In this document: piece after piece, positions 1 through 28,877 of the stretch
Layout of the letters: each line of letters starts with the position of its first letter
Position numbering within the stretch: the stretch's first letter is position 1
Position numbers and translations under genes: made by a program
Notes under the pieces: model-generated
What the model was told of the DNA's origin: nothing
What the model saw: only the letters and a program-made list of their open reading frames with translations
Database searches by the model: none
Assembly: GCF_000802245.2 (NCBI RefSeq)
Contig: NZ_CP021080.1
Location: 6,572,001 to 6,636,000, forward strand
Source of the DNA: Streptomyces pluripotens
Lineage (GTDB): Bacteria > Actinomycetota > Actinomycetes > Streptomycetales > Streptomycetaceae
Length of the DNA stretch: 64,000 nucleotides
Reading direction: 5' to 3'

Positions 1-183
1 CCGCCACTTGTGCCACAGATGAATCCCGCACACTAGCGGCGTAGGCCGATTCAAGAGCGAGAAGTGGCCATACGGGCTTGATTTCAGTCTGGTTACGCAA
101 GAGTGTTCACGTATGTTGGTAGCTACCGGAGGGGAACACGCGAAACCGCATTTTCCCGTCGTCGAACTGCCAAGGGGGAACCA

Positions 184-1059
184 GTGCGCCTCACCATGCT
201 TTCGTCGGACCGGGTATACGAAAGCACCCGTCTGCCGGCGGAGTCCCAAGGTCCGGTTTCGATGTACTGCGGGCTGCTCGGGCCCCTGCGCATCGGGGCC
301 GATGAAGCGGGCGATCCCGTGCGGCTCGCTCCGAAAATACGCACCGTGCTGGCGATGCTATGCCTGCACCCCGAACAAGTGGTTCCCGCCCCTGCGCTGA
401 TGCGGGAGCTGTGGTCCGACCATCCTCCCGCGAGCGGTCTGCGCACCCTGCAGACATACGTCCTCAACATCCGCAAACTATTGTCCCAGGTGGCAGACCG
501 GGAGCCTGCCCGAGTCGCGCAGGACATGCTCGTCACCCGGGCCGGCGGCTACAGCCTGCAGAGCGCCGGAATGCGTCTGGACTGGCTGGAGTTCATCCAA
601 CTGGCCGACCAGGGCCGGACGAAACTGCGAGGCGGTGACGGTCGTACCGGTATCCGGCTGCTGGAGAAGGCGCTGCGCCTGTGGCACGGCAGTGCCTTGT
701 CCGACGTGCCGGCCGGGTCGGTCCTGGAATCACGTCGTCTGCATCTGGAGGAGTCGCGGCTGGACGCGGTGGAAGCCTTGGTCGAAGCACGGATCGAGGC
801 CGGGCTGCACCAGAAGGTCATTGCCGAACTCGCATCACTGACTAATGAGCACCCCTATCACGAGGGATTGCACGCCCAGTACATGCGCGTCCTCGCGCTC
901 AACGGGCGCCGGGCTCGGGCACTGGAGGTGTTCACCCGGCTTCGAGCCCGTCTGGTGGATGACATCGGAATTGAGCCAGGTTATCCATTGCAGCAACTCC
1001 AGCTGAAAATTCTGAACTCACACACCCCCCAGACATTTACTCCTTCGGCGGCAAGCTGA
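184..1059 (+). CDS. SARP-family pathway-specific transcriptional activator
   Basis: Cytoplasmic DNA-binding activator of the AfsR/DnrI/RedD (SARP) family, 291 aa, the length of a small stand-alone SARP. Residues about 20-105 form the OmpR-like winged helix (VRLAPKIRTVLAMLCLHP, then LRTLQTYVLNIRKLL). The rest is the bacterial transcriptional activation domain (DWLEFIQLADQG, HPYHEGLHAQYMRVLALNG, ending in IGIEPG). I chose GTG 184 because AAGGGGGA at 172-179 precedes it. The frame is open back to a GTG at 103, and ATG 196 is an alternative. No TTA codon is seen. The gene lies on the same strand as, and 535 bp before, the diaminopropionate operon, so by family habit it is probably that cluster's activator; this is inference. 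No ATPase or NB-ARC extension is present. Confidence 0.9.
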   Translation: MRLTMLSSDRVYESTRLPAESQGPVSMYCGLLGPLRIGADEAGDPVRLAPKIRTVLAMLCLHPEQVVPAPALMRELWSDHPPASGLRTLQTYVLNIRKLLSQVADREPARVAQDMLVTRAGGYSLQSAGMRLDWLEFIQLADQGRTKLRGGDGRTGIRLLEKALRLWHGSALSDVPAGSVLESRRLHLEESRLDAVEALVEARIEAGLHQKVIAELASLTNEHPYHEGLHAQYMRVLALNGRRARALEVFTRLRARLVDDIGIEPGYPLQQLQLKILNSHTPQTFTPSAAS

Positions 1060-1594: not shown

Positions 1595-2566
1595 ATGACC
1601 GTCATCACCGCGGCTCACGAACTCCTCGACAGCGACGTCTACATCGACCTGCGCCCCAGCCTCGGCCTGCCACTGCACCTCAAGTGCGAGGGCTTCAACT
1701 TCGCCGGATCCATCAAGATCCAGCCGGCCGCGCGGATGGTCGAGGCGGCCCAGCGCGACGGCCTCATCACGGCGGACTCCGTTCTGATCGAGTCCTCCTC
1801 GGGCAACCTCGGCGTGGCCCTCGCCGTGATCACCGCCTCAAAGGGGCTGCGGTTCGTCTGCGTCACCGACCCCAACTGCAATTCCGCCACCGCGAGCCTG
1901 ATCAGAGCGCTGGGCGCCGAGGTCGTGGTGGTGGACGAGACCGACGACACCGGTGGACACCTCGCGGCACGCAAGGCCTACGTGAGCCGCCGCTGTGCCG
2001 AAGACCCGGCCCTCGTCTGGCTCAACCAGTACGAGAATCCCGCCAATTGGATCGCCCACTACGAGACCACCGCGGCTCTGATAGCCAAGGACTTCCCCGG
2101 CCTGGAGACCCTGTTCATCGGCGCGGGCACCGGAGGAACCCTGATGGGCTGCGCCCGCTACTTCCGCGAACACCGACCAGGGGTCCGCATCATCGCCGTC
2201 GACAGCGTCGGCTCCGTGAGTTTCGCCGGTGCCCCCGGACCACGGCACATCCCCGGACTGGGGGCCAGCGCGCCGATGCCGCTGATCGACCCGGGACTCG
2301 TCGACGAGGTCATCCGCATCCATGAGATCGACACCATCCACACCTGTCGCCGGCTCGCGGCCCGCGGCATCCTCCTGGGCGGCTCCTCCGGAACGGTGAT
2401 CACTGCGGCCTCCCAGTGGTTCGCCCACCACCGCGGCAACCCGCACACCGCGGTGGCCATCGCGCCGGACCTGGGGGAGCGCTACATCGACACGATCTAC
2501 AACGACACCTGGGTCACGCACCACTACGGCCACGACGACCTGAACAAGATCCTGGAGACGTTTTGA
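1595..2566 (+). CDS. sbnA: SbnA-type PLP synthase, N-(2-amino-2-carboxyethyl)-L-glutamate synthase
   Basis: Pyridoxal-phosphate enzyme of the cysteine-synthase fold, 323 aa, the usual SbnA length. In the family it joins O-phospho-L-serine and L-glutamate, the first of two steps to L-2,3-diaminopropionate (L-Dap). The Schiff-base lysine is expected at K41 in FAGSIKIQPA. The cofactor phosphate loops are SSSGNLG (about 69-75) and GAGTGGT (about 176-182), and GGSSGT follows near 280. It is the first gene of the operon. Its TGA overlaps the TTG start of the next gene, the normal SbnA/SbnB partnership. O-acetylserine sulfhydrylase is the main alternative, but the adjacent SbnB homologue and the SIK rather than SxKDR lysine motif favour SbnA. 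Confidence 0.88.
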   Translation: MTVITAAHELLDSDVYIDLRPSLGLPLHLKCEGFNFAGSIKIQPAARMVEAAQRDGLITADSVLIESSSGNLGVALAVITASKGLRFVCVTDPNCNSATASLIRALGAEVVVVDETDDTGGHLAARKAYVSRRCAEDPALVWLNQYENPANWIAHYETTAALIAKDFPGLETLFIGAGTGGTLMGCARYFREHRPGVRIIAVDSVGSVSFAGAPGPRHIPGLGASAPMPLIDPGLVDEVIRIHEIDTIHTCRRLAARGILLGGSSGTVITAASQWFAHHRGNPHTAVAIAPDLGERYIDTIYNDTWVTHHYGHDDLNKILETF

Positions 2567-3621
2567 GCAGCCAGGCCGGTACCCCCCCGTTCTCCGTCGT
2601 CCCAGGCAGCACCGTCCACCAGGTGCTCGACGGGCGACAACGGGAGATCATCGAACTGGTCGAGCAGGCGTACCGCCTGCACGGCGAGGGCCACACGGTG
2701 AATCCGCCGTCATACTTCCTGCGGTTCCCGGACCGGCCCACCGCCCGCATCATCGCCCTTCCCGCGTCGGTCGGCGGCGACGCCCCGGTGGACGGCCTGA
2801 AGTGGATATCCAGCTTCCCGGGCAATCTCGATCGCGGCATCCCCCGCGCCTCCGCGGTCCTGATCCTCAACGACCCGGCCACCGGCTACCCGTACGCCTG
2901 CCTCGAAAGTTCCATCATCAGCGCCGTACGCACGGCCGCCTCGGCTGCGGTCGCGGCTCGCGCGCTGGGTGAGAACAGGCCCGTCCCGCACCGCGTCGGG
3001 TATCTGGGCACGGGGCTCATCGCGCGCTACGTGCACTCCTACCTGTCCGCGCTCGGCCTACCCCCGCAGGAGTACGCCGTCCACGACGTGTCGGGCGACT
3101 ACGCCCGGAGCTTCGCCGGCCACCTGGCCCGCAACACGGGTACGTCCCCGCTCGTCCTGGACTCGGCGGAAGAACTGGTCCGCTCCTGCGACCTGATCGT
3201 GTGCGCGACCACCGCGGCCACCCCCCACCTCCTCGATCCATCCCTGTTCAGCCACCACCCGCTGGTGTTGCACGTGTCACTGCGCGACCTGGGCACGGAG
3301 GTCGTCCTCGGGAGCTTCAACGTCGTCGACGACGTCGAGCACGTACTCAAGGCGAATACCTCGGTCCACCTCGCGGAACAGCGCACCGGCGGCCGGGACT
3401 TCCTCGACGGCACCCTCTACGACGTCCTCACCGGCACCCTCAAGGTGCCGGCCGACCGCACCGTGGTCTTCTCACCGTTCGGGCTCGGCGTACTCGACCT
3501 GGCGGTCGGCGCGCACGTCCACGCCCGCGCCGGCGACACCGGCCGGCTCGTCACCGTGGATGGGTTCTTCCACGACCTGGACCGACACGACTCCCCGGAG
3601 ACGGAAGGTGGGCGGCGATGA
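2563..3621 (+). CDS. sbnB: SbnB-type NAD-dependent dehydrogenase forming L-2,3-diaminopropionate
   Basis: Ornithine-cyclodeaminase/mu-crystallin-family dehydrogenase, 352 aa. In the SbnB reaction it oxidatively splits N-(2-amino-2-carboxyethyl)-L-glutamate into L-Dap and 2-oxoglutarate using NAD. Visible marks are the substrate region PPSYFLRFPDRPTARIIALP, the Rossmann start RVGYLGTGLIARYV, and the C-terminal run FSPFGLGVLDLAVG typical of the family. I chose TTG 2563, which overlaps the upstream stop (TTGA) and has GGAG about 7 nt before it. An open frame extends to 2416 but is antisense-like arginine-rich translation. The stop overlaps the next ATG (ATGA), so the genes are translationally coupled. 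Confidence 0.88.
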   Translation: MSSQAGTPPFSVVPGSTVHQVLDGRQREIIELVEQAYRLHGEGHTVNPPSYFLRFPDRPTARIIALPASVGGDAPVDGLKWISSFPGNLDRGIPRASAVLILNDPATGYPYACLESSIISAVRTAASAAVAARALGENRPVPHRVGYLGTGLIARYVHSYLSALGLPPQEYAVHDVSGDYARSFAGHLARNTGTSPLVLDSAEELVRSCDLIVCATTAATPHLLDPSLFSHHPLVLHVSLRDLGTEVVLGSFNVVDDVEHVLKANTSVHLAEQRTGGRDFLDGTLYDVLTGTLKVPADRTVVFSPFGLGVLDLAVGAHVHARAGDTGRLVTVDGFFHDLDRHDSPETEGGRR

Positions 3622-5315
3622 CCACGACACCCGATCGCACCGGTGCTCCGGCGCGGACGTGGGCCGAACTCCCCCTGGCCCCGATGGCCGTGGCCCGTGC
3701 CGGCGAACTGGCCTTGCGCAGAGCCGGAACACACGATACGGCCACCGCCGTGCTGGACCACGTCATCGGCCACGCCCAGCGCGACCCGGACCGCCCCGCC
3801 GTCGTCGACGGCGAACGCACCCTCAGCTACCGGGGCCTGCTGGGCAGGGTCGCCGCGGCGCGCGACACCCTGCACGCCGCTGGGGTGCGCGCCGGAGACG
3901 TTGTCGCGGCCGTCGGACCCCGTAGTGCCGACACCCCGGTCGTCTTCCTGGCGCTGGAGGCCCTGGGGGCCTCGTACCTGCCGCTCGATCCGGGCTGGCC
4001 GGAGGTCAGGGTCCGCGACGTCCTGGACCGCAGCGGAGCCGCGCTGCTCCTGGACTACTCCGGCGACGGCGACGGCGACGGCGACGGCACCGTGCACGCC
4101 GCACGGTCCGCCGCCGTCGCCGAGCAGGTGGCCGTTGTGCCGCTGCCGGCCGACGACGAAGGCGGTGAACTCTCGAGTCGGAGCGGCACCGACCGTTCCC
4201 GGGAGGTCCGCTACACGATCTTCACCTCGGGGACCACGGGCCGCCCCAAGGGGGCCACCGTCGAGCACCAAGGCATGCTCAACCACCTCTGGGCCAAGGT
4301 GACCGACCTGTCACTGGGGCCCGAGGACGCGGTGGCGTTCACCGCTCCGGTCGTCTTCGACATCTCCATCTGGCAGATGCTCTGTCCGCTGCTGGTCGGC
4401 GGACGAGTGGTCGTGGTCGGTGACGCGGCCCTACGGCTGCCCCGCTGGCTCACCGGCGTCCTGGACGCCGCCGCCGTCACCGTGGTGGAACTCGTGCCCA
4501 CGGTCATCGGCTGGCTGGCGGACGACCTGAGCCGCCGCGAGCGCCCCGCACTGGCCTCGCTGCGGTGGCTGCTGTCCACCGGTGACGAGTTGTACCCGAC
4601 CCTTGCCCAGCGTGTCCTGCTGACCCTGCCGCACGTGACGGTGGTCAACGCATACGGCCCCACGGAGTGCTCCGACGATGTCACCCACCATGTGGTGACA
4701 CGGGCCGATCTGGCCAGCCCTCGGCTTCCCGTCGGCGCACCGGTCCTCGGCACCGCCCTCTACGTACTGGTCCAGGACGCGGAGGGCGCCGGCTGGAGGG
4801 CGGCCGAACCGGGGGAGAGCGGCGAGCTCTTCATCGGGGGCACCGGAGTGGGGCTGGGCTATCTCAACGATCCGGACACCACCGACCGCGTCTTCTTCCG
4901 CGACCCCTTCGACGCGGACTCCGCCACCGGCCGGCTCTACCGCTCCGGTGACCTGGCCCGCGTCGAGGGAGGACTCGTGTACTACACGGGTCGCAGCGAC
5001 CGGCAGGTGAAGGTGTCCGGCGTCCGCATGGAACTGGGGGAGATCGAGGTCGTCTTGAGCCGGCATCCGGCCGTCGAGCAGTGCGCGGTCGTCGTCTCAG
5101 GGCAAGGCGAGCACGGCGAACTCGTGGCCCACTACAGCCTGCGGGCCCCCACGTCCGCGAGCGCACTGCAAGAGACGTTGAGCGGGGCACTGCCGATCGC
5201 GATGGTGCCACGGCGCTGGCGGGAGTGGGACGCACTGCCCCTGACGCACAACGGAAAGATCGACCACAGGTCGCTCCAGGCGGCCGCAGCCACCCACCGG
5301 AAGGAGGCACCATGA
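3618..5315 (+). CDS. Free-standing NRPS adenylation domain, probably L-Dap activating
   Basis: Amino-acid-adenylating enzyme, 565 aa, lacking condensation and carrier domains. Core motifs are clear: A3 YTIFTSGTTGRPKG (about 198-211), A4 VFDISIWQ with the Asp that normally holds the substrate alpha-amine (about 244), A5 NAYGPTE (about 344), A7 YRSGDLAR (about 441), A8 GRSDRQVKVSGVRMELGEIE, and A10 LPLTHNGKID with the catalytic Lys near 547. It would make an aminoacyl-AMP and load it onto the carrier protein encoded at 7391. Substrate L-Dap is inferred from the two preceding genes. A GACGGC microrepeat near 4062-4088 encodes a (GD)n loop in the N-terminal part. ATGA overlaps occur at both ends. 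Confidence 0.9.
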   Translation: MTTTPDRTGAPARTWAELPLAPMAVARAGELALRRAGTHDTATAVLDHVIGHAQRDPDRPAVVDGERTLSYRGLLGRVAAARDTLHAAGVRAGDVVAAVGPRSADTPVVFLALEALGASYLPLDPGWPEVRVRDVLDRSGAALLLDYSGDGDGDGDGTVHAARSAAVAEQVAVVPLPADDEGGELSSRSGTDRSREVRYTIFTSGTTGRPKGATVEHQGMLNHLWAKVTDLSLGPEDAVAFTAPVVFDISIWQMLCPLLVGGRVVVVGDAALRLPRWLTGVLDAAAVTVVELVPTVIGWLADDLSRRERPALASLRWLLSTGDELYPTLAQRVLLTLPHVTVVNAYGPTECSDDVTHHVVTRADLASPRLPVGAPVLGTALYVLVQDAEGAGWRAAEPGESGELFIGGTGVGLGYLNDPDTTDRVFFRDPFDADSATGRLYRSGDLARVEGGLVYYTGRSDRQVKVSGVRMELGEIEVVLSRHPAVEQCAVVVSGQGEHGELVAHYSLRAPTSASALQETLSGALPIAMVPRRWREWDALPLTHNGKIDHRSLQAAAATHRKEAP

Positions 5316-6538
5316 CGAGTGCGACGGCGAAGGCGGTTGGACCCGCGCCGGACGGCGGGACCCCGGCCGAGGGGCGGGACGGTTCGACGCCGGACCTCGG
5401 GCAGCGAATCGCCGCGGTGACCCGGGCCGCCGAGGAGCATCTCGACGAAACCGAACGCGACGCGGTATTCCCCGAACACGCGCTGGCGGAGATGCGCCGC
5501 ACCGGGCTGCTCGGACTGCTCGTACCGGTCGAGTACGGCGGGCTCGGCGGTACGGTCACCGATCTCGTCGACGTGAGCATGGCCCTCGGCCGAACCGACA
5601 TGTCCGTGGCGATGATCCTCGCCATGCACTGCCAGCAGTCCGAGGCGATCGTCAGGTACGCCGCCTCCGGGCTGCGCGAGGAACTGCTCCGCCAACTCGC
5701 GTCCGGACACCTGTACCTGGCGTCGGTGACCACCGAACCCGGCAAGGGCGGCCACCTGTTCAGGTCGTACGCGCCTTTGCGTGAGGGCGAGGACACCCTG
5801 GAGATCAACCGGACGGCGCCGATCGTGACCGGCGGCACGGTGGCGGACGGTTTCCTGATCACGATGCGCAGCCCACAGGCCACGGCTGACCACCACGTCT
5901 CCCTGGTCTACGCCCACAGGCACCAACTGCGGGTGGAGGGTGCCGGGGTGTGGTGTCCGATGGGCATGCGCGCCAGCCACAGCGTCCCGCTGACACTGAC
6001 GGGTACGATCCCCGCCCGTCAGGTGATCGGCGAACACGGCGCCTTCCACCGCATCGCCCAGTCCGTCTTCGGGCCGCTGGCCCACCTCGGCTGGTCGGCG
6101 GCCTGGCTGGGTACCGCCGCAGGCGCCCTCTCGCGCGTTCTGCGGCTGCTGCGCGACCCGGCCGGCCGTAAACGCCTCGACCTCGGCTCGGAACTGCTGA
6201 TGACACGCCTGTCCCGGGCCAGAGCGCGGCTCGACACCGTCCACGCTCTGCTGCGGCGCACCGAAGCGCTCGTGGCGTCCGGTGCCGATCTGTCGGCGGC
6301 CAGCAGCCAGCTCCTGCTGAACAACCTCAAGATCACTGCCGCGGAGGAGTGCTACCGGGCCGTCGACCTGCTGGTGGACGCCGTCGGGCTCCGGCACGGC
6401 TACCTCCAGGACTCGCCGACCCGGCTGGAGAAGACGCTGCGGGACCTGCGCTCAGCCGTGCTGAACTACAGCAACGACCGACTCCACCTGGCCGATGGGC
6501 AGTTGTGTCTGCTCGATCCGGGCGTGCGTTTCGCCTGA
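5312..6538 (+). CDS. Acyl-CoA dehydrogenase-fold flavoenzyme, possible carrier-bound oxidase or N-oxygenase
   Basis: Flavoprotein of the acyl-CoA dehydrogenase superfamily, 408 aa. The N-terminal helical domain contains LGLLVPVEYGGLGGT and the middle beta domain has YLASVTTEPGKGG. The segment GMRASHS (about 216-222) sits where true dehydrogenases have GMRxSxT/S. The C-terminal helical bundle is present (ITAAEECYRAVDLLVDAVG). Its ATG overlaps the adenylation gene stop and has GGAAGGAGG upstream. With a carrier protein and an FMN reductase in the same locus, it may dehydrogenate or hydroxylate the tethered aminoacyl group. Group D flavin monooxygenases share this fold, so N-oxygenation is possible. 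The family call is secure; the reaction is inference. Confidence 0.82.
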   Translation: MTSATAKAVGPAPDGGTPAEGRDGSTPDLGQRIAAVTRAAEEHLDETERDAVFPEHALAEMRRTGLLGLLVPVEYGGLGGTVTDLVDVSMALGRTDMSVAMILAMHCQQSEAIVRYAASGLREELLRQLASGHLYLASVTTEPGKGGHLFRSYAPLREGEDTLEINRTAPIVTGGTVADGFLITMRSPQATADHHVSLVYAHRHQLRVEGAGVWCPMGMRASHSVPLTLTGTIPARQVIGEHGAFHRIAQSVFGPLAHLGWSAAWLGTAAGALSRVLRLLRDPAGRKRLDLGSELLMTRLSRARARLDTVHALLRRTEALVASGADLSAASSQLLLNNLKITAAEECYRAVDLLVDAVGLRHGYLQDSPTRLEKTLRDLRSAVLNYSNDRLHLADGQLCLLDPGVRFA

Positions 6539-6824
6539 CCCTTCCCGTGCCCTGGCCCGCCGCTGCGCGGGGAGTACCGGCGAAGTACCTCCGTTTGCCG
6601 TTCGTATCTCCCGCAGCCAATTTCGGTGACCCGTTTTCCGGACGTCAATGCGATCGAATTCGTTCTTGTGTCTCCGGAAAGTAACTGTTAGCCTCGAAAA
6701 GGCGGCAAATTGCGCGGTTGATTCGCGTAAATTCCATGGACTCACCTATGTCAGCCTGCTCCTGTGGTCACGCGCCAGGAGCGAAGAAATCATCGCATCC
6801 GCACTCCACCACCAAGGAGTCCTC
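6539..6824 (+). promoter_or_regulatory. AT-richer gap with a plausible second promoter of the cluster
   Basis: This 286-bp gap interrupts an otherwise overlapping gene run and is visibly richer in A and T. TTGTGT (6666-6671), 17 nt, then TAGCCT (6689-6694) fits the Streptomyces housekeeping promoter pattern, about 130 bp before the next gene. The GAF frame is open through much of the gap, but the good ribosome site at 6814 argues that it is not coding. Confidence 0.45.
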
Positions 6825-7394
6825 ATGCCTGGAAACGGCTCGGAAACGACTGAGAACTGGAATACGGCGCTGCGTTACATCGCCGGACGCAAGGCGGCAG
6901 AGGAGGCTTTGGGGTTCCTTGCGCACATCACGGCGACCGTTCAGCGCGCCGCCGATATCGAAGAGGTCGTGCCGGCGGTGGCCAAGGCCTGCGTCCCCTT
7001 CCTCGGCTCCGCCCTCTCGCTGGGCACCCTCGCCACGCACTCCCGTCTCGTGGTGCAGTCGCCCGCCGAGTTCTCCACCGCGCTGGAGGGCGTGCGCTCC
7101 CTCGCGGAAGACCGTGACGAGCCGCTTGTGATCAGCGGACACGAAGGCATGGCCGGCCAGACCGATCCGGGCCATCTCGACCTGCTGCGCCAGTGGAAGG
7201 CGGAGTCGGCGGTGCGGCTTCCGCTGGTCTACCGGGGCGTGCGCGGCGGTCATCTCGTTCTGCTGCGCGGCCCCAAGCATCGCCGGGGCCAGATCGGGCC
7301 CGCCGATCTGGCGCTCGTCTCCGAGGTCGCCGACCGCGTGGCGGCGTTCAACGCGTTCGCCACGCAGCTGGCCGGGGCGGACGTCCCGCGATGA
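6825..7394 (+). CDS. Single GAF-domain protein
   Basis: Small soluble protein, 189 aa, consisting mainly of one GAF-type sensor domain (about residues 25-175). The helix ALGFLAHITATVQRAADIEE is followed by alternating strands (SALSLGTLATHSRLVVQSP) and a C-terminal helix (ADLALVSEVADRVAAFNAFA). No kinase, cyclase, phosphatase or DNA-binding output is present. ATG 6825 is chosen because AAGGAG lies 6 nt upstream at 6814-6819. Its stop overlaps the carrier-protein start (ATGA), which ties its dosage to the biosynthetic enzymes. It may bind a ligand, haem or nucleotide, or act as a scaffold. I cannot assign a function; the family is moderately sure. Confidence 0.7.
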   Translation: MPGNGSETTENWNTALRYIAGRKAAEEALGFLAHITATVQRAADIEEVVPAVAKACVPFLGSALSLGTLATHSRLVVQSPAEFSTALEGVRSLAEDRDEPLVISGHEGMAGQTDPGHLDLLRQWKAESAVRLPLVYRGVRGGHLVLLRGPKHRRGQIGPADLALVSEVADRVAAFNAFATQLAGADVPR

Positions 7395-7630
7395 CGGCGA
7401 CCTGGCAGGACGTGCGCAGCTGGATTCTGCAGCGCAATCCCGAGCTCGACGAGGACAGCCTGGATCCGGAAACCGACATCATCGAATCCCGAATTGTCGA
7501 CTCGTTGCAGTTCGTGGAACTGGTTCTCCATATCGAGGAATTGCGCGGTGAAATGATGGAATCCATGGACGTCGATCTGGACGCCTTTCGGACACTCAAG
7601 GATATCGAGCGTAATTTCCTTCTGCGGTAG
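7391..7630 (+). CDS. Free-standing peptidyl/acyl carrier protein
   Basis: Carrier protein of 79 aa. The phosphopantetheine attachment serine is S38 in ESRIVDSLQFVELVLHIEEL, with acidic residues before and after as expected for a four-helix carrier. It starts at an ATG overlapping the GAF stop. With the free-standing adenylation domain encoded upstream it forms a minimal loading system: the amino acid, probably L-Dap, is held as a thioester while other enzymes act on it. The thioesterase encoded next would release or proofread it. No phosphopantetheinyl transferase is in the window, so a general one must act. Confidence 0.9.
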   Translation: MTATWQDVRSWILQRNPELDEDSLDPETDIIESRIVDSLQFVELVLHIEELRGEMMESMDVDLDAFRTLKDIERNFLLR

Positions 7631-7647
7631 CGGTGGGAAAGGAATCG

Positions 7648-8439
7648 GTGAGAGAATATGGGGGCGGCATGACGAGCGGACGGTCCATCGTGGTGCAGGG
7701 CGACGTGCGCGACACCGTCGATGCGGTGGTCTTCCTGCCGCCGGCCGGCAGTGTCACCTCGCCCTTTCTCCCGATCGGAGCACACCTGGCTGCCGCCGTT
7801 CCCGTGCTGCACTGCGAGACGCCCGGCCGCGGCCGGCTTGCGCACCAGGAGGCTCCCGCCTCCGTGGCCGCCGCCGTGGACCGGTGGGCTGACGACCTCG
7901 CCGCGACCCTGCCGGAAGGTCGCCTACACCTGTTCGGCCACAGTCTGGGGGCCCTGTTCGCCTATGAGCTGGCTGCACGGCTCGAAGGGGAACCCCGGTA
8001 CGAGGTCATGAGCTTGTCGGTCTCCGGTGCCCGGGGGCCCACCAGCGCAGCGCGCACCCTGGTGACCGCGGCATTCGCGGCACTGCGCCAGAACCAGCGC
8101 AGCGCCGACACGAAGGGCGACCCGAACGGGACGTGGCTCGCCCTGGACCTGCGTATGCGGCGGCAGCACCGTGTCAGCCGGCCGTCGGTCCGGGCGCCCC
8201 TCGCCCTGTTCTGCGCGGATGCCGACCCGTTCGCCCGCTCCGCCGACATGGAGGAGTGGAAGCACTTCACCACAGGTCCGTCCCTGGGGACGTTCACCTT
8301 CCCCGGGGGACACGACTACTACCTCTTCGCCCACCTTCCGGTCGCCACGACGATCGCCGGTCTCGTCGCCGCGGCGCCCACCTCAACACATCCCTATCCG
8401 AAACCCGGTCAGTTCCCTCAGAACAGGAGTCAGACATGA
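7648..8439 (+). CDS. Type II thioesterase (alpha/beta hydrolase)
   Basis: Alpha/beta hydrolase of the type II thioesterase family, 263 aa. The nucleophile S99 is in LFGHSLGALFAYELA. The acid is probably the Asp in ALFCADADPFA, and the histidine is in FPGGHDYYLF. It should hydrolyse thioesters from the carrier protein encoded 17 bp upstream, releasing the finished amino acid or clearing misloaded groups. Three in-frame starts exist (GTG 7633, GTG 7648, ATG 7669). I prefer 7648 for the AAAGGAA preceding it, but 7669 is possible. Its TGA overlaps the ATG of the PAS gene (ATGA), so it belongs to the same operon. Confidence 0.85.
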   Translation: MREYGGGMTSGRSIVVQGDVRDTVDAVVFLPPAGSVTSPFLPIGAHLAAAVPVLHCETPGRGRLAHQEAPASVAAAVDRWADDLAATLPEGRLHLFGHSLGALFAYELAARLEGEPRYEVMSLSVSGARGPTSAARTLVTAAFAALRQNQRSADTKGDPNGTWLALDLRMRRQHRVSRPSVRAPLALFCADADPFARSADMEEWKHFTTGPSLGTFTFPGGHDYYLFAHLPVATTIAGLVAAAPTSTHPYPKPGQFPQNRSQT

Positions 8440-9296
8440 CGGTCGACAAGCACAGCGCGCCCACGATCGAGCAGCTGATCGACGTGGTCGGCAACAGTTC
8501 GGTCGGCATCACGGTGACCGACCGCACCGGTGCCGTCCTGCTGCACAACAAGGCACAGTCGGTCCTCATGGACGGAGAAGGCGACCACCTCGGCGGCCGG
8601 GTCCTGGTCGACGGCGTGGACGGGCTCTCCAGCCTGCTGGCACGGTTGGAGAAGGCAGGCCGGTTTGAGAACGTCAGGGTCACCTACCGCAGTGCCGACG
8701 GCCGGCAGGAGCGTGCCGCGGCCGTCAACGCCGTGGCGACCGGAAGCGGCGACCAGACCCGGATCCACTGGGTGAGCCGGCCGGAACTCGGCGAGCGGTT
8801 GCCGGTGTCCAACACCAGCAACGAGGACCCCACCTCCGACGCGGCCACCTGGATCCGCACGGTCAACGAGCGGGAGCACCCGACCCTTGCCCCCACCAAG
8901 GAGCACGAGTCGGTACTGCGCGAGTTCTACGAGCTCGCGCCGGTGGCGATCCACCTCATCGGAGCCAACGGCACCGTCATGCACGCCAACCCGGCCGACG
9001 TGGCCCTGGTCGAGTACACCTCCAGCCCCTCCGAGTACGTGGGCGGTCACATCCGCAAGATCTACGAGGACCAGGGGCTGCTCGACGACTTCCTGGCCCG
9101 CTGGGACGAGGACTCGCCGATCATCAACTTCCGGGCGAACTTCGTCACCCGGGACGGTGCCCCCAAGCCCGTACTGATCTTCTCGACGGCGCAGGCGTCC
9201 GGTGGCAACGTCTCCAACACCCGCTGCTTCGTCTTCAACGACCCCGAGCCCCAGCGCGCGCGGGACGCCGTCAGCGCCTTCGGCTGGCCGGCCTGA
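8436..9296 (+). CDS. Double PAS-domain protein without output domain
   Basis: Soluble 286-aa protein with two PAS-like domains. The first is at about residues 8-110 (IDVVGNSSVGITVTDRTGAV, HNKAQSVLMDGEGDHLGGR). The second is at about 160-275 (FYELAPVAIHLIGANGTVMH, NPADVALVEYTSS, FVTRDGAPKPVLIFS). No kinase, cyclase or DNA-binding module follows. It starts inside the thioesterase stop (ATGA) with AACAGGAG upstream. PAS folds bind haem, flavin or small ligands. In an operon of carrier-bound amino-acid oxidation it may sense redox state or NO, or may have been recruited as a catalyst; both are speculation. I recall a PAS protein in the alanosine cluster but cannot verify its similarity to this one. 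Confidence 0.78.
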   Translation: MTVDKHSAPTIEQLIDVVGNSSVGITVTDRTGAVLLHNKAQSVLMDGEGDHLGGRVLVDGVDGLSSLLARLEKAGRFENVRVTYRSADGRQERAAAVNAVATGSGDQTRIHWVSRPELGERLPVSNTSNEDPTSDAATWIRTVNEREHPTLAPTKEHESVLREFYELAPVAIHLIGANGTVMHANPADVALVEYTSSPSEYVGGHIRKIYEDQGLLDDFLARWDEDSPIINFRANFVTRDGAPKPVLIFSTAQASGGNVSNTRCFVFNDPEPQRARDAVSAFGWPA

Positions 9297-9370
9297 GGCG
9301 AGGCGTCCGGAGCCCGGGTCCGCCCGGGTTCCGGACGCATAGACCAGACCTCGACCCGACCATCCCTGGG

Positions 9371-9910
9371 GTGACCGTGTCCAACGTGTTGGTAATTTCG
9401 GGAAGCCCGTCACCGATGTCCAAGACCGAACTCGTCGGGGACCACGTGGCGCGGCGACTGGCCGAGTACGAGTGGCACACCGGGCACCTGAGGGTACGCA
9501 CCCTGCCCGCCACACCACTGCTCCACGCACACGCGGCGCACCCGGCCATCGCCGCCGCGCTGGACCAGGTCTCGCGGGCCGACGGCATCGTGCTGGCCAC
9601 ACCGACGTACAAGGCGAGTTTCTCCGGACTGCTCAAGACGTTCCTCGACTTGCTGCCGCAGTACGGATTCACCCACAAGGCCGTCCTCCCCCTCGCGACC
9701 GGCGGCAGCGCCGCGCACGTCCTGGCGCTGGACTACGCGCTGCGCCCGGTGGTGCACTCCCTGGGCGCCCGGCACGTCGTACAGAGCGTCTTCGTGCTCG
9801 ACAAACACGTGGTCCACGAAGACGGGAACCTGCACATCGGGCAGAGCGGCTCCGTGATGCTCGATGCGGTGATCGAGCAGTTCCGCAAGGCGCTCGTCGG
9901 AACCTCGTGA
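9371..9910 (+). CDS. NADPH-dependent FMN reductase (SsuE-like)
   Basis: Flavodoxin-fold reductase, 179 aa. The N-terminal FMN phosphate loop reads NVLVISGSPSPMSKTE. ATPTYKASFSGLLKTFLDLLP is split here as ATPTYKASFSG and LLKTFLDLLP, the flavin-binding region typical of SsuE/MsuE enzymes. It transfers hydride from NADPH to FMN and would supply reduced flavin to a partner monooxygenase. The only candidate partner nearby is the acyl-CoA dehydrogenase-like protein encoded at 5312. The start GTG 9371 is weakly supported; GTG 9377 is equally possible. It is the last gene of the run and is followed directly by a strong hairpin. Confidence 0.87.
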   Translation: MTVSNVLVISGSPSPMSKTELVGDHVARRLAEYEWHTGHLRVRTLPATPLLHAHAAHPAIAAALDQVSRADGIVLATPTYKASFSGLLKTFLDLLPQYGFTHKAVLPLATGGSAAHVLALDYALRPVVHSLGARHVVQSVFVLDKHVVHEDGNLHIGQSGSVMLDAVIEQFRKALVGTS

Positions 9911-9935
9911 CGGGTGCCGGCGCCGCCGGCACCCG
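9911..9935 (+). terminator. Perfect 11-bp hairpin ending the diaminopropionate operon
   Basis: CGGGTGCCGGC (9911-9921) and GCCGGCACCCG (9925-9935) pair perfectly around a 3-nt loop, starting on the base after the FMN reductase stop codon. Its position makes termination its likely role. Confidence 0.7.
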
Positions 9936-10389
9936 CTGTCGTCGAAGCGGCGCTGCGCCGCCCCCGGCGGTACGCGGTGACCGGCTTCAGCGGACGCGAG
10001 CGGACCACGCCGTCCTCCTCCCGCTCGTTCCCGCCCCGCCCCCAGGGGCTGCGGTGCGGCGGCCCGCCCCCTACACGGAGCGGTGCCGACGGGTGGGACC
10101 GGAGCGTCCGCCGCCCCGAACGGCCGTGTCCGTGTCGCCGGCGGCACCGACCGGTGGGCCGGTGAACTTGGCCAACTGCCCCCGCTGGAGCACCACGACG
10201 GCATCGCAGCTGCACTTGCAGTATTCGAGATCACCGCCGGACGTCCGGTGACTGGACAGCAGTCGCCAGGTCGGCCGTGGCAGGGCGGCGGTGCAGCCCC
10301 ATTCCCGCAGGGGGCAACAGTCGCCAGCCGGCGGCCCGTCCGGGTCGCCCGTCCCGGTGGATCGGTGAGCCCTCGGCGGTGCGGACCGG
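9936..10389. other. Convergent intergenic region, nothing recognised
   Basis: 454 bp between the operon terminator and the 3' end of the convergent transporter gene. Open frames here are short, arginine- and proline-rich, and lack ribosome sites. No repeat or RNA gene was recognised. Confidence 0.5.
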
Positions 10390-11604
10390 TCAGCGGCGGT
10401 CGGGCCGGGCGGGAGAGAGTGCGGCATCGGTGTCGTCTCCCTTCGTGGGCGCCGCGGTTCCGGGCCGCGGCACGGTGGGTTCGGGCAGGGTCCGGAACAG
10501 CAGCCAGCTCAGCGCCGGCATCAGGATCAAGGGGGCCAGGGCGGTGCGCAGGGAGGTCGCGTCGGCGATACCGCCGATGACGGGGCTCATCAGACCGCCG
10601 ATGCTGACGGTCAGGCCGAGGGTGATCCCGCTGGCGGTGCCCATCCGCGAGGGCAGGTAGTCCTGGCCGAGGGTGACCTGGAGTGAGAACGGGACGTACA
10701 GGCCGGCCGAGGTCAGTGCCACGAACACGTACAGGGCTGGACCCGGCACGAAGACCACGCCGGCGACCGCGGCGACCGTCATCAGGTACGACCAGCGGGC
10801 GACCGTGACCCGGTCCCACCGGTTGGCCAGTGCGCCGCCCAGCACGGAGCCGACCGCGCCGCCGAGGTAGAGCACGAACAGTGCCGCGGTCCCCGCGGCG
10901 GTGCTGCCATCCATGCGCTGCTTTGCATACAAAGAGATGAACGTGCTCAGGCCGATGAAGACGATCGAGCGGCACACCACGGCCAGCGACAGCTTCACGA
11001 ACGACCCCTTGTCGTCGTTCCCGGCCGCACCCGCCGGACCGGCCCCCGAGGCCTGCCGCTGTCCCAGAGCACGCAGCACGGGCAGACACAAGGTGCTGCC
11101 GGCGAGCGCAGGCAGCACCAGCAGCGGTGTCAGACGCAGCCCGCCGGTGGCCACGACCGCGGTGACCAAGAGCGGGGCCAGCGCGAAACCGAGGTTGCCG
11201 CCCAGCGAAAACCAGCTCATGGCGCTGTGGCTGCCTTGGCTGGCGAGCCGTGCGACCCGGGCGGACTCGGGGTGGTAGGCGGCCACACCGACGCCGGAGA
11301 TCGCCACGAACACGAGAGTGAGCCCGTACGAACCGCTCACCCCGCTCAGAGCGATGCCCACACCGCCCAGCAGCGTGCTCACCGGCAGCAGCCACGGCAT
11401 CGCCCACCGGTCGGTAAGGACACCGAACACCGGCTGGGCCACCGATGACAGCAAGGAGGCGGCCAACACGATGCCGGAGACGGCGGCGTAGCTGTAGGCG
11501 CGCTCGGCCACGAAGAACGGGACCAAGGACGCCACGGCGCCCTGGTAGACGTCGACACAGGCGTGCCCCACGGACAACAGGGTGATCGATGTATTCCTTC
11601 GCAC
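10390..11604 (-). CDS. MFS exporter (fosmidomycin-resistance-like)
   Basis: Integral membrane exporter of the major facilitator superfamily, 404 aa, with about 12 hydrophobic segments. The first, SITLLSVGHACVDVYQGAV, and the loop GVLTDRWAMPW resemble the fosmidomycin-resistance (Fsr) branch. The second half repeats the pattern (GSVLGGALANRWDR). The start is GTG at 11604, giving MRRNTSIT; no strong ribosome site is visible. It is divergent from a cupin-AraC regulator with only 51 bp between starts, so the regulator probably controls it. It lies next to the diaminopropionate operon and could export that product, but such MFS/AraC pairs also occur alone. Confidence 0.85.
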   Translation of the reverse strand: MRRNTSITLLSVGHACVDVYQGAVASLVPFFVAERAYSYAAVSGIVLAASLLSSVAQPVFGVLTDRWAMPWLLPVSTLLGGVGIALSGVSGSYGLTLVFVAISGVGVAAYHPESARVARLASQGSHSAMSWFSLGGNLGFALAPLLVTAVVATGGLRLTPLLVLPALAGSTLCLPVLRALGQRQASGAGPAGAAGNDDKGSFVKLSLAVVCRSIVFIGLSTFISLYAKQRMDGSTAAGTAALFVLYLGGAVGSVLGGALANRWDRVTVARWSYLMTVAAVAGVVFVPGPALYVFVALTSAGLYVPFSLQVTLGQDYLPSRMGTASGITLGLTVSIGGLMSPVIGGIADATSLRTALAPLILMPALSWLLFRTLPEPTVPRPGTAAPTKGDDTDAALSPARPDRR

Positions 11605-11655
11605 CTCGTCATGATCTGAGCCCGCAACCGTGTCGCACTTCCAATAAGCTGCCGA

Positions 11656-12402
11656 ATGATGACGCAGATCCGCCATGAGCCTGTGGCTCCGACCCGCACC
11701 CAGTGGTTGGCGCCCGGCAGCGCGATAGACGCCCACCGGCACGACGACCACCAGATCGTCTACGCCGGCCGGGGCGTGCTGGGCGTCGCCACCAGCGCCG
11801 GTTCCTGGGTTGCCCCCGGCACCCGTGCCATCTGGGTGCCGGCCGGCACCATGCACGCCCATCAGGCCCACGGCGAACTTGAGCTGCACCTGGTCGGGCT
11901 GCCCGCGACCGAGAACCCGCTCAGCCTGGACACCCCGACCGTGCTGGCCGTGAGCCCGCTGCTGCGCGAACTGATCGTCGCCTACACCCGCACCCCGGAC
12001 GACGACAGTCCCGAGCGGGCCCGTCTGCGTGCGGTGCTGATCGACCAGCTGAGAGTGTCGCCGCAGCAGCCACTGCACCTGCCCACGCCTTCTTCGCCCC
12101 TGTTGCGGGCGGTGTGCGACATCCTGCGCGCCGATCCCGCGGACGGCCGCACGCTCGCCGAACTGGGCCGCGAGGTCGGGGCGAGCGACCGCACCCTGTC
12201 CCGGCTGTTCCGGCGCGACCTGGGCATGACGTTCCCGCAGTGGCGCACCCAGCTGCGGCTCCACCATGCGCTGGTCCTGCTTGCCGGGAGAACTCCGGTG
12301 ACCGCCGTGGCGCACCGGTGCGGCTGGTCGTCGGCCAGCGCGTTCATCGACGTCTTCCGGCGTACCTTCGGTCACACGCCGGGCTCTCACTCGATCGGTT
12401 GA
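11656..12402 (+). CDS. Cupin-AraC family transcriptional regulator
   Basis: Regulator of 248 aa with an N-terminal cupin (about 15-95: PGSAIDAHRHDDHQIVYAGR, TRAIWVPAGTMHAHQAHG) and a C-terminal AraC/XylS pair of helix-turn-helices (about 150-245: TLAELGREVGASDRTLSRLF, VTAVAHRCGWSSASAFIDVF, RRTFGHTP). The His-rich cupin could bind a metal or a small effector. It is divergently transcribed from the MFS exporter with 51 bp between. Published work on L-alanosine describes a required cupin-AraC fusion regulator (AlnA), which makes this neighbour noteworthy. However, cupin-AraC/MFS pairs are common, so pathway membership is uncertain. Confidence 0.88.
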   Translation: MMTQIRHEPVAPTRTQWLAPGSAIDAHRHDDHQIVYAGRGVLGVATSAGSWVAPGTRAIWVPAGTMHAHQAHGELELHLVGLPATENPLSLDTPTVLAVSPLLRELIVAYTRTPDDDSPERARLRAVLIDQLRVSPQQPLHLPTPSSPLLRAVCDILRADPADGRTLAELGREVGASDRTLSRLFRRDLGMTFPQWRTQLRLHHALVLLAGRTPVTAVAHRCGWSSASAFIDVFRRTFGHTPGSHSIG

Positions 12403-20977: not shown

Positions 20978-23242
20978 ATGACCGTGGCAGCAACCCGCGC
21001 AGACGTGGACGCACCCGCCGAGGCCTGGCGCGGGTTCACCGGCCGTGACTGGCGCAGCACCATCGACGTACGCGATTTCATCCAGGCCAATTACACGCCC
21101 TACGCAGGCGGTCCCGAATTCCTGTCCGGCCCGACCGAGCGCACGCTCGACGTCTGGCACAAGGTCAGCGCCCTGTTCCCCGAGGAACGCCGCAAGGGCA
21201 TCCTCGACGTGGACACCGCCACCCCGTCCACGATCACCTCGCACGCCCCCGGCTACATCGACCAGGACCGAGAGCTGATCGTCGGGCTGCAGACCGACGC
21301 CCCGCTGAAGCGGGCGATCATGCCCAACGGGGGCCTCCGGATGGTCGAGAACGGTCTGAAGGCGTACGGCTACGAGCCCGACCCGTTCGTGACCAAGGTC
21401 TTCGGCACCTACCGCAAGACCCACAACGACGCCGTCTTCGACGCCTACACCCCCGCGATGCGGGCCGCCCGCAGGGCCGGCATCATCACCGGGCTGCCCG
21501 ACGCCTACGGCCGCGGCCGGATCATCGGCGACTACCGGCGCGTCGCGCTGTACGGCACCGCCCGGCTGATCGAAGCCAAGCAGGCCGAACGTGCCCTGCT
21601 CGACGAGCAGCCCTCCACCCCGGACGTCATCCGTGACCGCGAGGAACTGGCCGAGCAGACCAGGGCCCTGGGCGAACTGACGAGGATGGCCGCCTCCTAC
21701 GGCTGCGACGTGTCCCGCCCCGCCACCACCGCGCACGAAGCGGTGCAGTGGCTCTACCTCGGTTTCCTGGCCGCGGTGAAGGAGCAGAACGGCGCGGCGA
21801 TGTCGCTGGGCCGCACCTCGACCTTCCTGGACGTCTACCTTCAGCGCGACCTGGACGAGGGCCGCATCGACGAGAGCCACGCCCAGGAGCTGATCGACGA
21901 CTTCGTGATCAAGCTGCGGATCGTGCGGTTCCTGCGCACGCCCGAGTACGACGCCCTGTTCTCCGGCGACCCGACCTGGGTGACCGAGGCCATAGGCGGC
22001 ATCGGCACCGACGGCCGCCCGCTGGTCACCCGTACCTCCTTCCGCTTCCTGCAGACCCTCTACAACCTGGGACCGGCCCCGGAACCCAACCTCACCGTGT
22101 TGTGGTCGTCCCGGCTGCCCGAGGGGTTCAAGCGGTTCTCGGCCCAAGTCTCCATCGACACCAGTTCCATCCAGTACGAGTCAGACGACCTGATGCGTCC
22201 GTGCACCGGCGACGACACCGCGATCGCCTGCTGCGTGTCGGCGATGGCGGTCGGCAAGCAGATGCAGTTCTTCGGCGCTCGCGTGAACCTCGCCAAGGCC
22301 CTGCTGTACGCGATCAACGGGGGGCGGGACGAGATCTCCGGTGAGCAGGTGGCGCCCGAAATGCCCGTCCTGGCCGGGGAGTACCTGGACTACGACGAGC
22401 TGCGGCAGGCGTACGACCGGATGCTGGACTGGCTGGCGGAGACGTACGTGGACGCGCTCAACGTGATCCACTTCATGCACGACAAGTACGCCTACGAGCG
22501 CATCGAGATGGCGCTGCACGATCATCCGGTGCACCGCTTCATGGCCTGCGGGATCGCCGGGCTCTCGGTGGCCGCCGACAGTCTGTCCGCCGTCAGGTAC
22601 GCCCGGGTGAAGGTGATCCGGGACACCTCCGGGCTGGCCGTGGACTACGAGGTCGAGGGCGAGTATCCCGCGTACGGCAACAACGACGACCGCGCGGACG
22701 GGTTCGCCGTCGACCTGGTGGAGTCCTTCATGGCCAAGGTGCGTAAGCACCCCACCTACCGGGGCGCCGAACACACCCAGTCGGTGCTGACGATCACGTC
22801 GAACGTGGTCTACGGCAAGCACACCGGCAGCACGCCCGACGGCCGGCGCGCCGGACAGCCGTTCGCACCCGGCGCGAACCCGATGAACGGGCGGGACCGC
22901 CACGGCATGGTGGCGTCGGCGCTGTCCGTGGCCAAGCTTCCGTACGCGGAGGCCCGCGACGGCATCTCCCTGACCTCGACGATCACGCCGGAGGGACTCG
23001 GTCACGACCCGGCCGAGCGCGCGGCCAACCTGGTCGGCATCCTCGATGCCTACACGGCAGCGGGCGGCTACCACATGAACGTCAACGTGCTGAACCGGGC
23101 GACCCTGGAGGACGCCATGGAACACCCCGAGAAGTACCCGGAGCTGACCATCCGGGTCTCCGGATACGCCGTCAACTTCGTCCGCCTGACCCGCGAGCAG
23201 CAGCTTGACGTGATCAGCCGCACCTTCCACGGGTCGCTGTGA
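20978..23242 (+). CDS. pflB: Pyruvate formate-lyase (glycyl radical enzyme)
   Basis: Formate C-acetyltransferase, 754 aa: pyruvate plus CoA gives acetyl-CoA plus formate, in oxygen-free cytoplasm. The adjacent catalytic cysteines are C418-C419 in [10 protein letters not shown] and the glycyl radical is G729 in [12 protein letters not shown]. This close correspondence to E. coli PflB (C418, C419, G734) argues for true PFL rather than a diol dehydratase or decarboxylase. ATG 20978 has GCGGAGGC just upstream; GTG 20945 is a weaker alternative. Its stop overlaps the activase start. It is oxygen-sensitive, so its presence in an aerobic genus suggests use during hypoxia, and AdhE nearby could take its acetyl-CoA. 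Confidence 0.95.
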
Positions 23243-24018
23243 ACCCCGTGGCGCCCTCGGCACCGGGGCAGCCGGTGCCGGCGGCGGGCCGGCTCACGGG
23301 CCGGGTGCACTCCTGGGACCTGTCCACGGGTGTGGACGGTCCCGGGACCCGGTTCGTGCTGTTCGTCAGCGGCTGTCCACTGCGCTGCCGATACTGTGCG
23401 AACCCGGACACCTGGCACATGCGGGACGGGCGGGAGGCAACGGTCGAGGAGGTGGTGGCGGACATCACGAAGTACCGGGCCTTCATCACCACGGCGGGCG
23501 GGGGAGTGACCGTCACCGGTGGTGAGCCGCTGCTGCAGCCCCGATTCACCGGAGCGGTGCTCCGCCGCTGCAAGGAGTTGGGCCTGCACACCGCCCTGGA
23601 CACCTCCGGCTTCCTCGGGACCCGCGCCGACGATGCGCTCCTGGCCGACACCGACCTGGTGCTGCTCGACATCAAGTCCTTCGACGTCGGCACCTACCGG
23701 CGGCTGACCGGCGCCCCCCTCGCCCCCACGCTGAACTTCGCCACCCGCCTGGACAGGTTGGGCATCCCCGTGTACATCCGCTACGTCCTCGTCCCGGGCT
23801 GGACCGACGACCCGTCCGCAGTGGACGGCCTCGGTGCCTTCCTGGCCGGGCTGGGCAATGTCGACCGGGTGGACGTGCTGCCGTTCCACAAGCTCGGCGC
23901 CCACAAGTACGACGCCCTCGGCATCGACTTCCCGCTGCGCAACACGCCCGTGCCCAACCCCGACCTGACGGAACGGGTGCGCGAGCAGTTCCGGGAGCAC
24001 GGTCTGCGGGCGCTGTGA
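23239..24018 (+). CDS. pflA: Pyruvate formate-lyase activating enzyme (radical SAM)
   Basis: Radical S-adenosylmethionine enzyme, 259 aa, that installs the glycyl radical on PflB. The 4Fe-4S site is the C-x3-C-x2-C in [16 protein letters not shown], the SAM-contact motif is [15 protein letters not shown], and [19 protein letters not shown] is typical of PflA. The start GTG 23239 overlaps the pflB stop (GTGA), so the two are translated as a coupled pair. Only the single cluster is visible, as in PflA, with no extra ferredoxin-like insert. Confidence 0.94.
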
Positions 24019-24029
24019 CCGGGCCGGCC

Positions 24030-24064
24030 GCACCCGAGCGGCTGCCATGGCGCTGCTCGGGTGC
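24030..24064 (+). terminator. Hairpin after pflA
   Basis: GCACCCGAGC (24030-24039) pairs with GCTCGGGTGC (24055-24064), extendable by a G-U and two G-C pairs toward the loop. It starts 12 nt after the pflA stop. Confidence 0.65.
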
Positions 24065-24152
24065 TGGTCGTCGGACACGTCGGCGGGAGGCCCTCCGTTA
24101 CGGACGGTCCGCCTACCGGCCACCGGCCCTCGCACGTCGGCTGCCTGCGCGT

Positions 24153-24166
24153 GGGCCACCCGGCCC
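24153..24166. promoter_or_regulatory. Dormancy-type box upstream of universal stress gene 1
   Basis: GGGCCACCCGGCCC matches GGGCC-N4-GGNCC and lies 77-90 bp before the start. Confidence 0.5.
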
Positions 24167-24242
24167 CCACCTGGTGACCTGAGGCCTCTCCTGTCCCAAG
24201 TGCCTTTCTCCGAAACTGAATTCGACTTCGAAGGAGGCCGAG

Positions 24243-25157: not shown

Positions 25158-25187
25158 CCAGCCACCCGGCGGACACAGCTGGTGTGC

Positions 25188-25245
25188 GGCCTCAAGCCTG
25201 CGGCGTGAGAACCCCGGAGGGTTCTCACGCCGCAGGCTTGAGGCC
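25188..25245. terminator. Perfect 27-bp hairpin between convergent genes
   Basis: Arms 25188-25214 and 25219-25245 are exact inverted complements around a CGGA loop. It lies between the convergent USP 1 and PPOX 2 genes, 30 bp after one stop and about 95 bp past the other. Its length and perfection are unusual for a simple terminator. Confidence 0.8.
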
Positions 25246-25340
25246 GTCCGCTGCCAAGGGCACCAAGGGCGGCAAAGGGGTCGAGCGGGCGTGGTGCCGG
25301 AAGGTGTCGCGGAGCGACGTACGGCAGCCGTTTCCCTGCG

Positions 25341-25805: not shown

Positions 25806-25948
25806 GGGGAGCTTCCACGCGGTTTCGTAGCTCACTGGTGTGTCGCTGACCGACGCAGTACGGCTCCTGTGGGGCCCGTCGCCGTGGTGACGGCCCGTGC
25901 ACCGGTACGGCATGCGTCGCGTCCCTTCCAGATGTGGGCGGCTGCCCA

Positions 25949-25980
25949 TTGGCGGCGTCCCACGATGCGGACGCCGCCAA
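25949..25980 (-). terminator. 12-bp hairpin after adhE
   Basis: TTGGCGGCGTCC (25949-25960) pairs exactly with GGACGCCGCCAA (25969-25980) around an 8-nt loop, 38 nt beyond the adhE stop. Confidence 0.7.
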
Positions 25981-26018
25981 CGGGCCTGGTCAGGACATTG
26001 GAGCGACACCGGAGCAGG

Positions 26019-28706: not shown

Positions 28707-28760
28707 GGGTGTGCGCCTCCGTGGACAAGGGCCGCCGGAGGGGTCCGGCGGCGGGTGGAT

Positions 28761-28796: not shown

Positions 28797-28877
28797 GTCT
28801 TCACTCTCGGTCGGTTCCCCGTGTCGTCCCCAGACACCGAAGGTCCCGCCCGGGGACTGACCGGCACCGCTCCGGAC

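Follow-up and report, generated by a model that had tools for sequence, protein, structure and literature searches.

L-Alanosine is among the few natural products with a diazeniumdiolate. In two published outlines, its pathway runs through carrier-bound L-2,3-diaminopropionate (Dap), which is hydroxylated by AlnG/AlaD and receives its distal nitrogen from an aspartate–nitrosuccinate (ANS) enzyme pair or from reductases (PMC11705231; PMC7347517). Reductases alnP/Q/R are placed in alanosine-type clusters by another paper (PMC10831120), and a reductase route is outlined in a review (PMC11705231). The same review treats the N–N-forming enzyme of L-alanosine as unassigned and AlnA as a possible regulator or a possible N–N enzyme (PMC11705231). 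Among the 14 related clusters of Wang et al. (2020), as relayed in PMC7347517, none carries alnM/N. The heme enzymes KinJ, FzmP and NegJ are a precedent for a partly GAF-like fold that attaches nitrite nitrogen to an amine, and one partly GAF-like heme enzyme is described with aspartate as the acceptor (PMC12154649). Here we analyze a locus at the left end of a 64,000-nucleotide stretch (the window; G000:C1:6572001–6636000) within a 7.35-Mb single-contig Streptomyces genome. We add it to the L-alanosine cluster family as a new member whose nitrous-acid pair was acquired separately; judged by its gene content, it is very probably an L-alanosine-type cluster, with L-alanosine itself or a very similar Dap-derived diazeniumdiolate as its product.

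The locus matches the Streptomyces alanosinicus cluster gene for gene

The initial annotation placed a Dap pathway between positions 1595 and 9910, with SbnA/SbnB-type enzymes, a free-standing adenylation (A) domain and carrier protein, a flavoenzyme of acyl-CoA dehydrogenase (ACAD) fold, an FMN reductase and a thioesterase, in runs joined by ATGA or TTGA overlaps. Family models recover every one of these proteins (Table 1). The run reads sbnA–sbnB–A–ACAD, then GAF–peptidyl carrier protein (PCP), then thioesterase–PAS and finally the FMN reductase, and five of its junctions are four-base overlaps: TTGA between sbnA and sbnB, and ATGA at sbnB/A, A/ACAD, GAF/PCP and thioesterase/PAS. The core thus stands as first drawn; its boundaries do not, since the earlier listing omitted the GAF gene and the gene for the Streptomyces antibiotic regulatory protein (SARP), and the whole system spans from about −3886 to 12402, past both ends of the core, as judged by comparison and by gene calling extended over 40 kb to the left of the window. 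Numbering takes the first base of the window as 1 and the preceding base as 0, and positions in L007 equal the window number plus 20000. The aspartate-to-nitrous-acid genes that had been suspected to the left of base 1 are there, as a creE/creD-type pair at −3886 to −423, and the cupin–AraC gene that had been linked to the alanosine regulator is present at the other end.

A profile search of genome contigs with an alignment of the double-PAS protein returned 30 loci, the first of which belongs to S. alanosinicus JCM 4714 (NZ_BMVG01000053.1; L016, L119). All 14 genes of that cluster, from the cupin–AraC gene through the nitrosuccinate lyase gene, have counterparts here at 56–91% identity, and our gene-call survey placed no extra biosynthetic gene between them. 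The two clusters share the order from SARP to FMN reductase, the A-domain code and the presence of an ANS pair. They differ in that the ANS pair of the window lies at the opposite cluster end, is divergent and belongs to another lineage, and in that the exporter–AraC block lies at the right end; the thioesterase, SARP and ANS proteins are the most diverged parts (56–66%). Among the 16 close loci (L016–L031), the order A–ACAD–GAF–PCP–thioesterase–PAS is kept in 15, L028 being the exception. The arrangement does not reflect chance, since this run persists among relatives and the SARP-to-FMN reductase order equals that of S. alanosinicus. The suggestion of alanosine or a relative as product is supported by the 14-gene match, by the creE/creD-type pair to the left, by the UniRef names AlaG and AlaE that S. 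alanosinicus homologues of the PAS and GAF proteins bear, and by the identical A-domain code; the PAS protein, too, has its relatives in loci of alanosine type. Of 392 genomes of the genus, seven contain a PAS-protein match; four of them (this genome included) are of the close type and three of a second type described below. Gene content and order, relatedness, active-site motifs and family thresholds are established directly; that L-alanosine itself is the product is what we infer from them.

The conserved motifs fit this assignment. Read at the customary code positions, the A domain has the code DIWELTADDK. A full A protein is present in 15 close relatives (L031 has none), and 13 of these, S. 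alanosinicus included, share this code, whereas L024 and L026 deviate at one position each. The serine of the carrier protein and the GHSLG motif of the thioesterase are kept in 16 of 16 alignment rows. In the ACAD protein, all 16 aligned rows (the window and L016–L030) have Asn at the position of the catalytic Glu of very-long-chain acyl-CoA dehydrogenase (VLCAD)-type enzymes. A dehydrogenase role is disfavoured because Asn occupies this position, and the substitution is in keeping with a putative monooxygenase, given that the cluster also encodes a flavin reductase.

The nitrogen source changes among related loci

Reductase-type alanosine clusters, among them those of S. hirsutus, S. caelestis and SID486, have the core in common with the window but carry a NarK/NasC/NirB-like cassette that the window lacks. 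Counted inside each locus rather than across the genome, a NasC-like nitrate reductase gene is present in 12 of the 16 close loci, accompanied by NarK, with some genes partial; NirB-like genes occur in all of these except L027, which ends at a contig end. An ANS pair lies inside two of the 16, those of S. alanosinicus (L016) and S. hiroshimensis (L025), the latter with reductases too. Three (L022, L024 and L026) have neither inside the locus, since we did not count a CreE-like match in L022 (34% over 36%) as an ANS pair. Across the 104 kb around the present locus (−39999 to 64000), tblastn at E 1e-3 found no NarK, NasC or NirB-like gene. A search confined to the 0.5 kb at 9911–10389 yielded a 33-residue NarK match (39%, E 6e-4) and weaker ones, none of which we counted as a reductase remnant. 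SID486 has its reductase cassette after the FMN reductase gene, the slot that the ANS pair takes in S. alanosinicus, and its genome has no lyase match at E 1e-120.

In the window genome, the ANS pair adjoins the SARP gene and is divergent from it. Its lyase is 62% identical to that of S. alanosinicus over 393 of 491 residues (59% in another comparison), and its CreE-like gene pairs with the S. alanosinicus gene that precedes the lyase gene. About 0.1 kb beyond the lyase gene ends a transposase remnant (HTH_21, HTH_Tnp_1), of IS3 type by our own reading. Lyase matches at E 1e-120 occur in 247 of the 392 genus genomes; because they are so common, an ANS gene alone carries little information, and the position directly beside SARP in two genomes tells more. 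The second of these genomes is that of S. pyxinae LP05-1 (L017, L125), which has the same ANS lineage, the same nsl–creE–divergent-SARP arrangement and an sbnAB-bearing core, but retains the reductase cassette too. Its ANS–SARP group and its core lie near the ends of two separate contigs, and their linkage can at most be presumed.

The third member of this ANS lineage, in S. atratus, lies about 5 kb outside the locus edge. There (L118:3647–10325 with L020:1–5360), the pair stands among genes for an ADH synthase-like aldolase, a 3-dehydroquinate synthase (DHQS) II, a ligase and a flavin hydroxylase, which we take to be of aminohydroxybenzoate type; a methyltransferase-like gene was also noted by eye. 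The block adjoins an alanosine-type core without sbnAB, and its ANS pair may feed a diazo product there. Apart from the pair described here, the window genome has two more nitrosuccinate lyase genes, each beside a CreE-like gene, at G000:C1:5923016–5924389 (L116) and 6143210–6144616 (L115). The former lies near a short-chain dehydrogenase/reductase (SDR) gene and genes resembling those for an FAD monooxygenase and a ligase, perhaps a diazo-type cluster by a reading by eye.

Core genes and ANS pairs show no simple match in history

Lyase trees were built from two samples. The first consisted mainly of the nearest relatives of the window lyase and was biased; the second gained 12 rows and lost 14 background rows by manual choice (nine near-duplicates and five distant lyases), leaving 46 rows, on which the CreE tree was also built. 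The ANS pair found here falls in a single clade with those of S. pyxinae and S. atratus (support 100/99 in the lyase tree and 100/100 in the CreE tree), and the S. alanosinicus lyase belongs with lyases from G157, G199 and G276, genomes outside the seven with a PAS match. Approximately unbiased (AU) tests rejected a clade that unites these three with S. alanosinicus (lyase p 7.8e-5, CreE p 1.5e-19) and the same clade with S. hiroshimensis added (lyase p 7.2e-9, CreE p 1.9e-6), where "these three" are the window, S. pyxinae and S. atratus. A single ANS origin in alanosine-type clusters is thus rejected once relatives of the S. alanosinicus lyase are included, and by CreE. A concatenated first-sample tree, which carries a long-branch warning, unites the S. 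alanosinicus pair with that of S. hiroshimensis (100/98), and their grouping as one clade was not rejected in that sample (p 0.47). The data thus support two ANS entries, and a third may have occurred.

For the core, a tree was built from six proteins. It places the window just outside a group that comprises S. alanosinicus, its sister SID486, S. hirsutus and S. caelestis, and S. pyxinae comes next. Tests on this tree reject both a clade that joins the window to S. pyxinae and S. atratus (p 6.8e-6) and a sister relationship of the window and S. alanosinicus (p 4.8e-5). Core and ANS histories show no simple match. Because the ANS pairs are of separate lineage and the reductases of SID486 occupy the slot of the S. 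alanosinicus pair, the nitrous-acid module probably joined alanosine-type clusters more than once, a pattern that points to repeated plug-in of the nitrous-acid supply into a single assembly core. In the simplest history, the ancestor of the group would have resembled present-day S. pyxinae in carrying both reductases and the first ANS lineage; the lineage of the window would then have lost the reductases, other lineages the ANS pair, and S. alanosinicus would have gained a second ANS pair in the reductase slot. S. atratus does not sit easily with this history: it falls outside the window and S. pyxinae group in the core tree, and its pair lies among aminohydroxybenzoate-type genes. Among the matches listed in a search of open-licence titles and abstract openings, we found no description of repeated ANS recruitment into alanosine clusters.

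Candidates for the N–N-forming protein

The 14 distant loci (L032–L045), whose PAS proteins are 35–41% identical to that of the window, represent a second cluster type. They have no match to the GAF protein, the FMN reductase or the cupin–AraC protein (the last searched at E 1e-5), and an ACAD match appears only in L041 (27%). Instead, the P450 family of L033 occurs in 13 and its small cupin family in 12 of the 14, and the ten loci in which an A protein was aligned have a different code (like DALFLGGVFK). These loci also have an SDR gene and, in part, an isopropylmalate synthase (IPMS)-like gene.

The set of 30 loci, three of which are shorter than 16 kb, was found by the PAS protein. Because PAS is therefore constant by construction, the informative part is what accompanies it. 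A carrier-protein match is present in 30 of 30 loci (34–90% identity over 58–100% of the length) and an in-locus NasC-like gene in 22 (12 of the 16 close loci and 10 of the 14 distant ones; L018, included in this count, also supplied the NasC query). The PAS protein itself consists of tandem PAS domains (model predicted local distance difference test score, pLDDT, 81.3) and lacks a recognised output domain, and the GAF protein consists of a GAF domain alone. Both models match ordinary PAS and GAF folds, FixL and DosS/DosT among them; the Foldseek matches of the GAF model include the heme GAF domains of DosS and DosT among many other GAF domains. Searches of the PDB at E 1, with the profile used for the GAF protein, and at E 0.01 found no sequence relatives of either protein. 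KinJ, FzmP and NegJ offer a possible precedent for the GAF protein at the level of fold.

We consider the PAS protein a candidate for the N–N step because it has no recognised output domain and is accompanied by a carrier protein in all 30 loci and by an in-locus nitrate reductase in 22. With a second ANS-fed cluster now beside reductase-fed or dual-fed relatives, the part that stays constant under a changing nitrogen source must include this step. In a more specific form of the proposal, which we put forward tentatively and hold to be rather doubtful, the double-PAS protein, perhaps with the GAF protein, would be not a sensor but a nitrosation catalyst or a carrier of nitric oxide (NO) or nitrite that acts on a carrier-bound hydroxylamine, with the nitrogen source as a repeatedly swapped plug-in. 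The ATGA overlap between the PAS and thioesterase genes would fit this form.

The cupin–AraC protein, the counterpart of AlnA, was matched in the genomes of all 16 close relatives (best matches 72–86%), and its gene is divergent from the exporter gene in 14 of these (the exceptions are L020 and L027, in the latter of which it lies on a different contig). An N–N role for this protein is disfavoured because it keeps its DNA-binding domain, because of its place opposite the exporter gene and because the second-type loci have no match to it.

Proposed pathway and alternative explanations

From gene content and motifs we infer each catalytic step in this strain and the protein that would join the nitrogens. 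SbnA and SbnB would supply L-Dap, which the free-standing A protein would activate and load onto the carrier protein. The ACAD-fold flavoprotein, using reduced flavin from the FMN reductase, could then hydroxylate the side-chain amine of the tethered Dap. In parallel, the CreE-like monooxygenase would convert aspartate to nitrosuccinate, from which the lyase would free nitrite. Nitrite (or NO) would nitrosate the hydroxylamine to an N-nitrosohydroxylamine, most likely aided by another cluster protein, before the thioesterase released the product and the major facilitator superfamily (MFS) protein exported it. The SARP and AraC proteins are the predicted regulators.

Several observations weigh against a separately acquired ANS pair that serves this core. 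AU tests on the biased first sample left a common ANS origin standing, with p 0.25 for the four-taxon clade, 0.24 with S. hiroshimensis and 0.10 for the window and S. alanosinicus alone. The identity of the ANS proteins to those of S. alanosinicus (56–62%) is below that of most of the cluster, and the pair could serve another product; the S. atratus pair of the same lineage sits with aminohydroxybenzoate-type genes and not with sbnAB; and with two more lyase genes in the genome, nitrite need not derive from this pair. Some of these points bear on an alternative that we regard as unlikely, in which the ANS pair is part of a decayed diazo-type cluster and the core draws its nitrite or NO from housekeeping nitrate and nitrite reductases. 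The transposase remnant beside the lyase gene, the surroundings of the S. atratus pair and a NasC-like gene of the genome's own at 2.07 Mb (60–63%) are consistent with it, as is the ability of reductases to supply the alanosine nitrogen that the review describes (PMC11705231). Against it, gene calling revealed nothing else of diazo type from the remnant to SARP, the nsl–creE–SARP arrangement recurs in S. pyxinae, and the in-locus nitrate reductase of 12 of the 16 close relatives is absent here.

That the core makes a Dap-derived N–N compound other than L-alanosine, such as a conjugate or a differently released acid, seems to us quite improbable. The divergence is greatest in the thioesterase, SARP and ANS proteins, as this would have it, and products may vary within the family: seven alanosine-type loci (L020, L021, L022, L023, L024, L026 and L027) have no sbnAB, yet their A codes are identical to that of the window or almost so, and in four of these seven genomes SbnB was not found at E 1e-30. 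All 14 S. alanosinicus genes are nonetheless matched here, with no extra biosynthetic gene called between them. An ordinary Dap-containing nonribosomal peptide synthetase (NRPS) or siderophore locus, with the ACAD protein as a dehydrogenase, can be all but set aside; sbnAB pairs do occur in such loci, and the genome has two more matches to the pair, but no condensation domain was found among the window proteins scanned with Pfam, Asn stands at the catalytic Glu position, and the synteny is with S. alanosinicus. An L-alanosine-type cluster fed by its own ANS pair is the reading that we retain.

Gene inventory and surroundings

Table 1 Genes assigned to the locus, numbered from the first base of the window (identities are to S. 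alanosinicus proteins unless stated)
Feature	Position	Strand	Evidence
Nitrosuccinate lyase (nsl)	-3886..-2411 (L007:16114-17589)	-	NF052556 758.4 bits (cut-off 650)
CreE-like monooxygenase	-2414..-423 (L007:17586-19577)	-	PF13454 141 bits; 56%; 67-69% to S. pyxinae and S. atratus
SARP-family activator	103..1059 (start may be 184)	+	PF03704, PF00486; 63%; 71% to SARP beside S. pyxinae ANS pair
SbnA-type enzyme, L-Dap step 1	1595..2566	+	TIGR03945 374.9 bits (cut-off 349.95); 85%
SbnB-type enzyme, L-Dap step 2, TTG start in TTGA overlap	2563..3621	+	TIGR03944 390.2 bits (cut-off 326.9); 80%
Free-standing adenylation protein, code DIWELTADDK	3618..5315	+	TIGR01733 326.5 bits (cut-off 317.4), PF00501 above cut-off; 78%
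ACAD-fold flavoprotein, AlnG/AlaD counterpart, putative N-hydroxylase	5312..6538	+	PF02771, PF00441; 84%
Stand-alone GAF protein (UniRef AlaE)	6825..7394	+	PF01590; 74%; GAF fold, pLDDT 88.9
Free-standing carrier protein, DSL serine motif	7391..7630	+	PF00550; 91%
Thioesterase, GHSLG motif	7669..8439	+	PF00975 (scored in longer frame from 7633); 66%
Double-PAS protein without recognised output domain (UniRef AlaG)	8436..9296	+	83%; PAS fold
SsuE-type NAD(P)H:FMN reductase	9371..9910	+	TIGR03567 198.8 bits (cut-off 164.05); 80%
MFS exporter, putative	10390..11613	-	PF07690; 83%
Cupin–AraC protein, AlnA counterpart, divergent from exporter gene	11656..12402	+	PF12833, PF00165, PF02311 above cut-off; 80%

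Two other places in the genome carry sbnAB-like pairs. The pair at G000:C1:4676001–4692000 (L123) adjoins a gene whose 1018-aa product contains an A domain, and the other lies around 2.884 Mb (L004, L005). Beside the cluster, positions 20978–39064 of the window hold an anaerobic-type block with genes for pyruvate formate-lyase, AdhE, an arginine antiporter, arginine deiminase, ornithine carbamoyltransferase, carbamate kinase and cytochrome aa3 subunit I.

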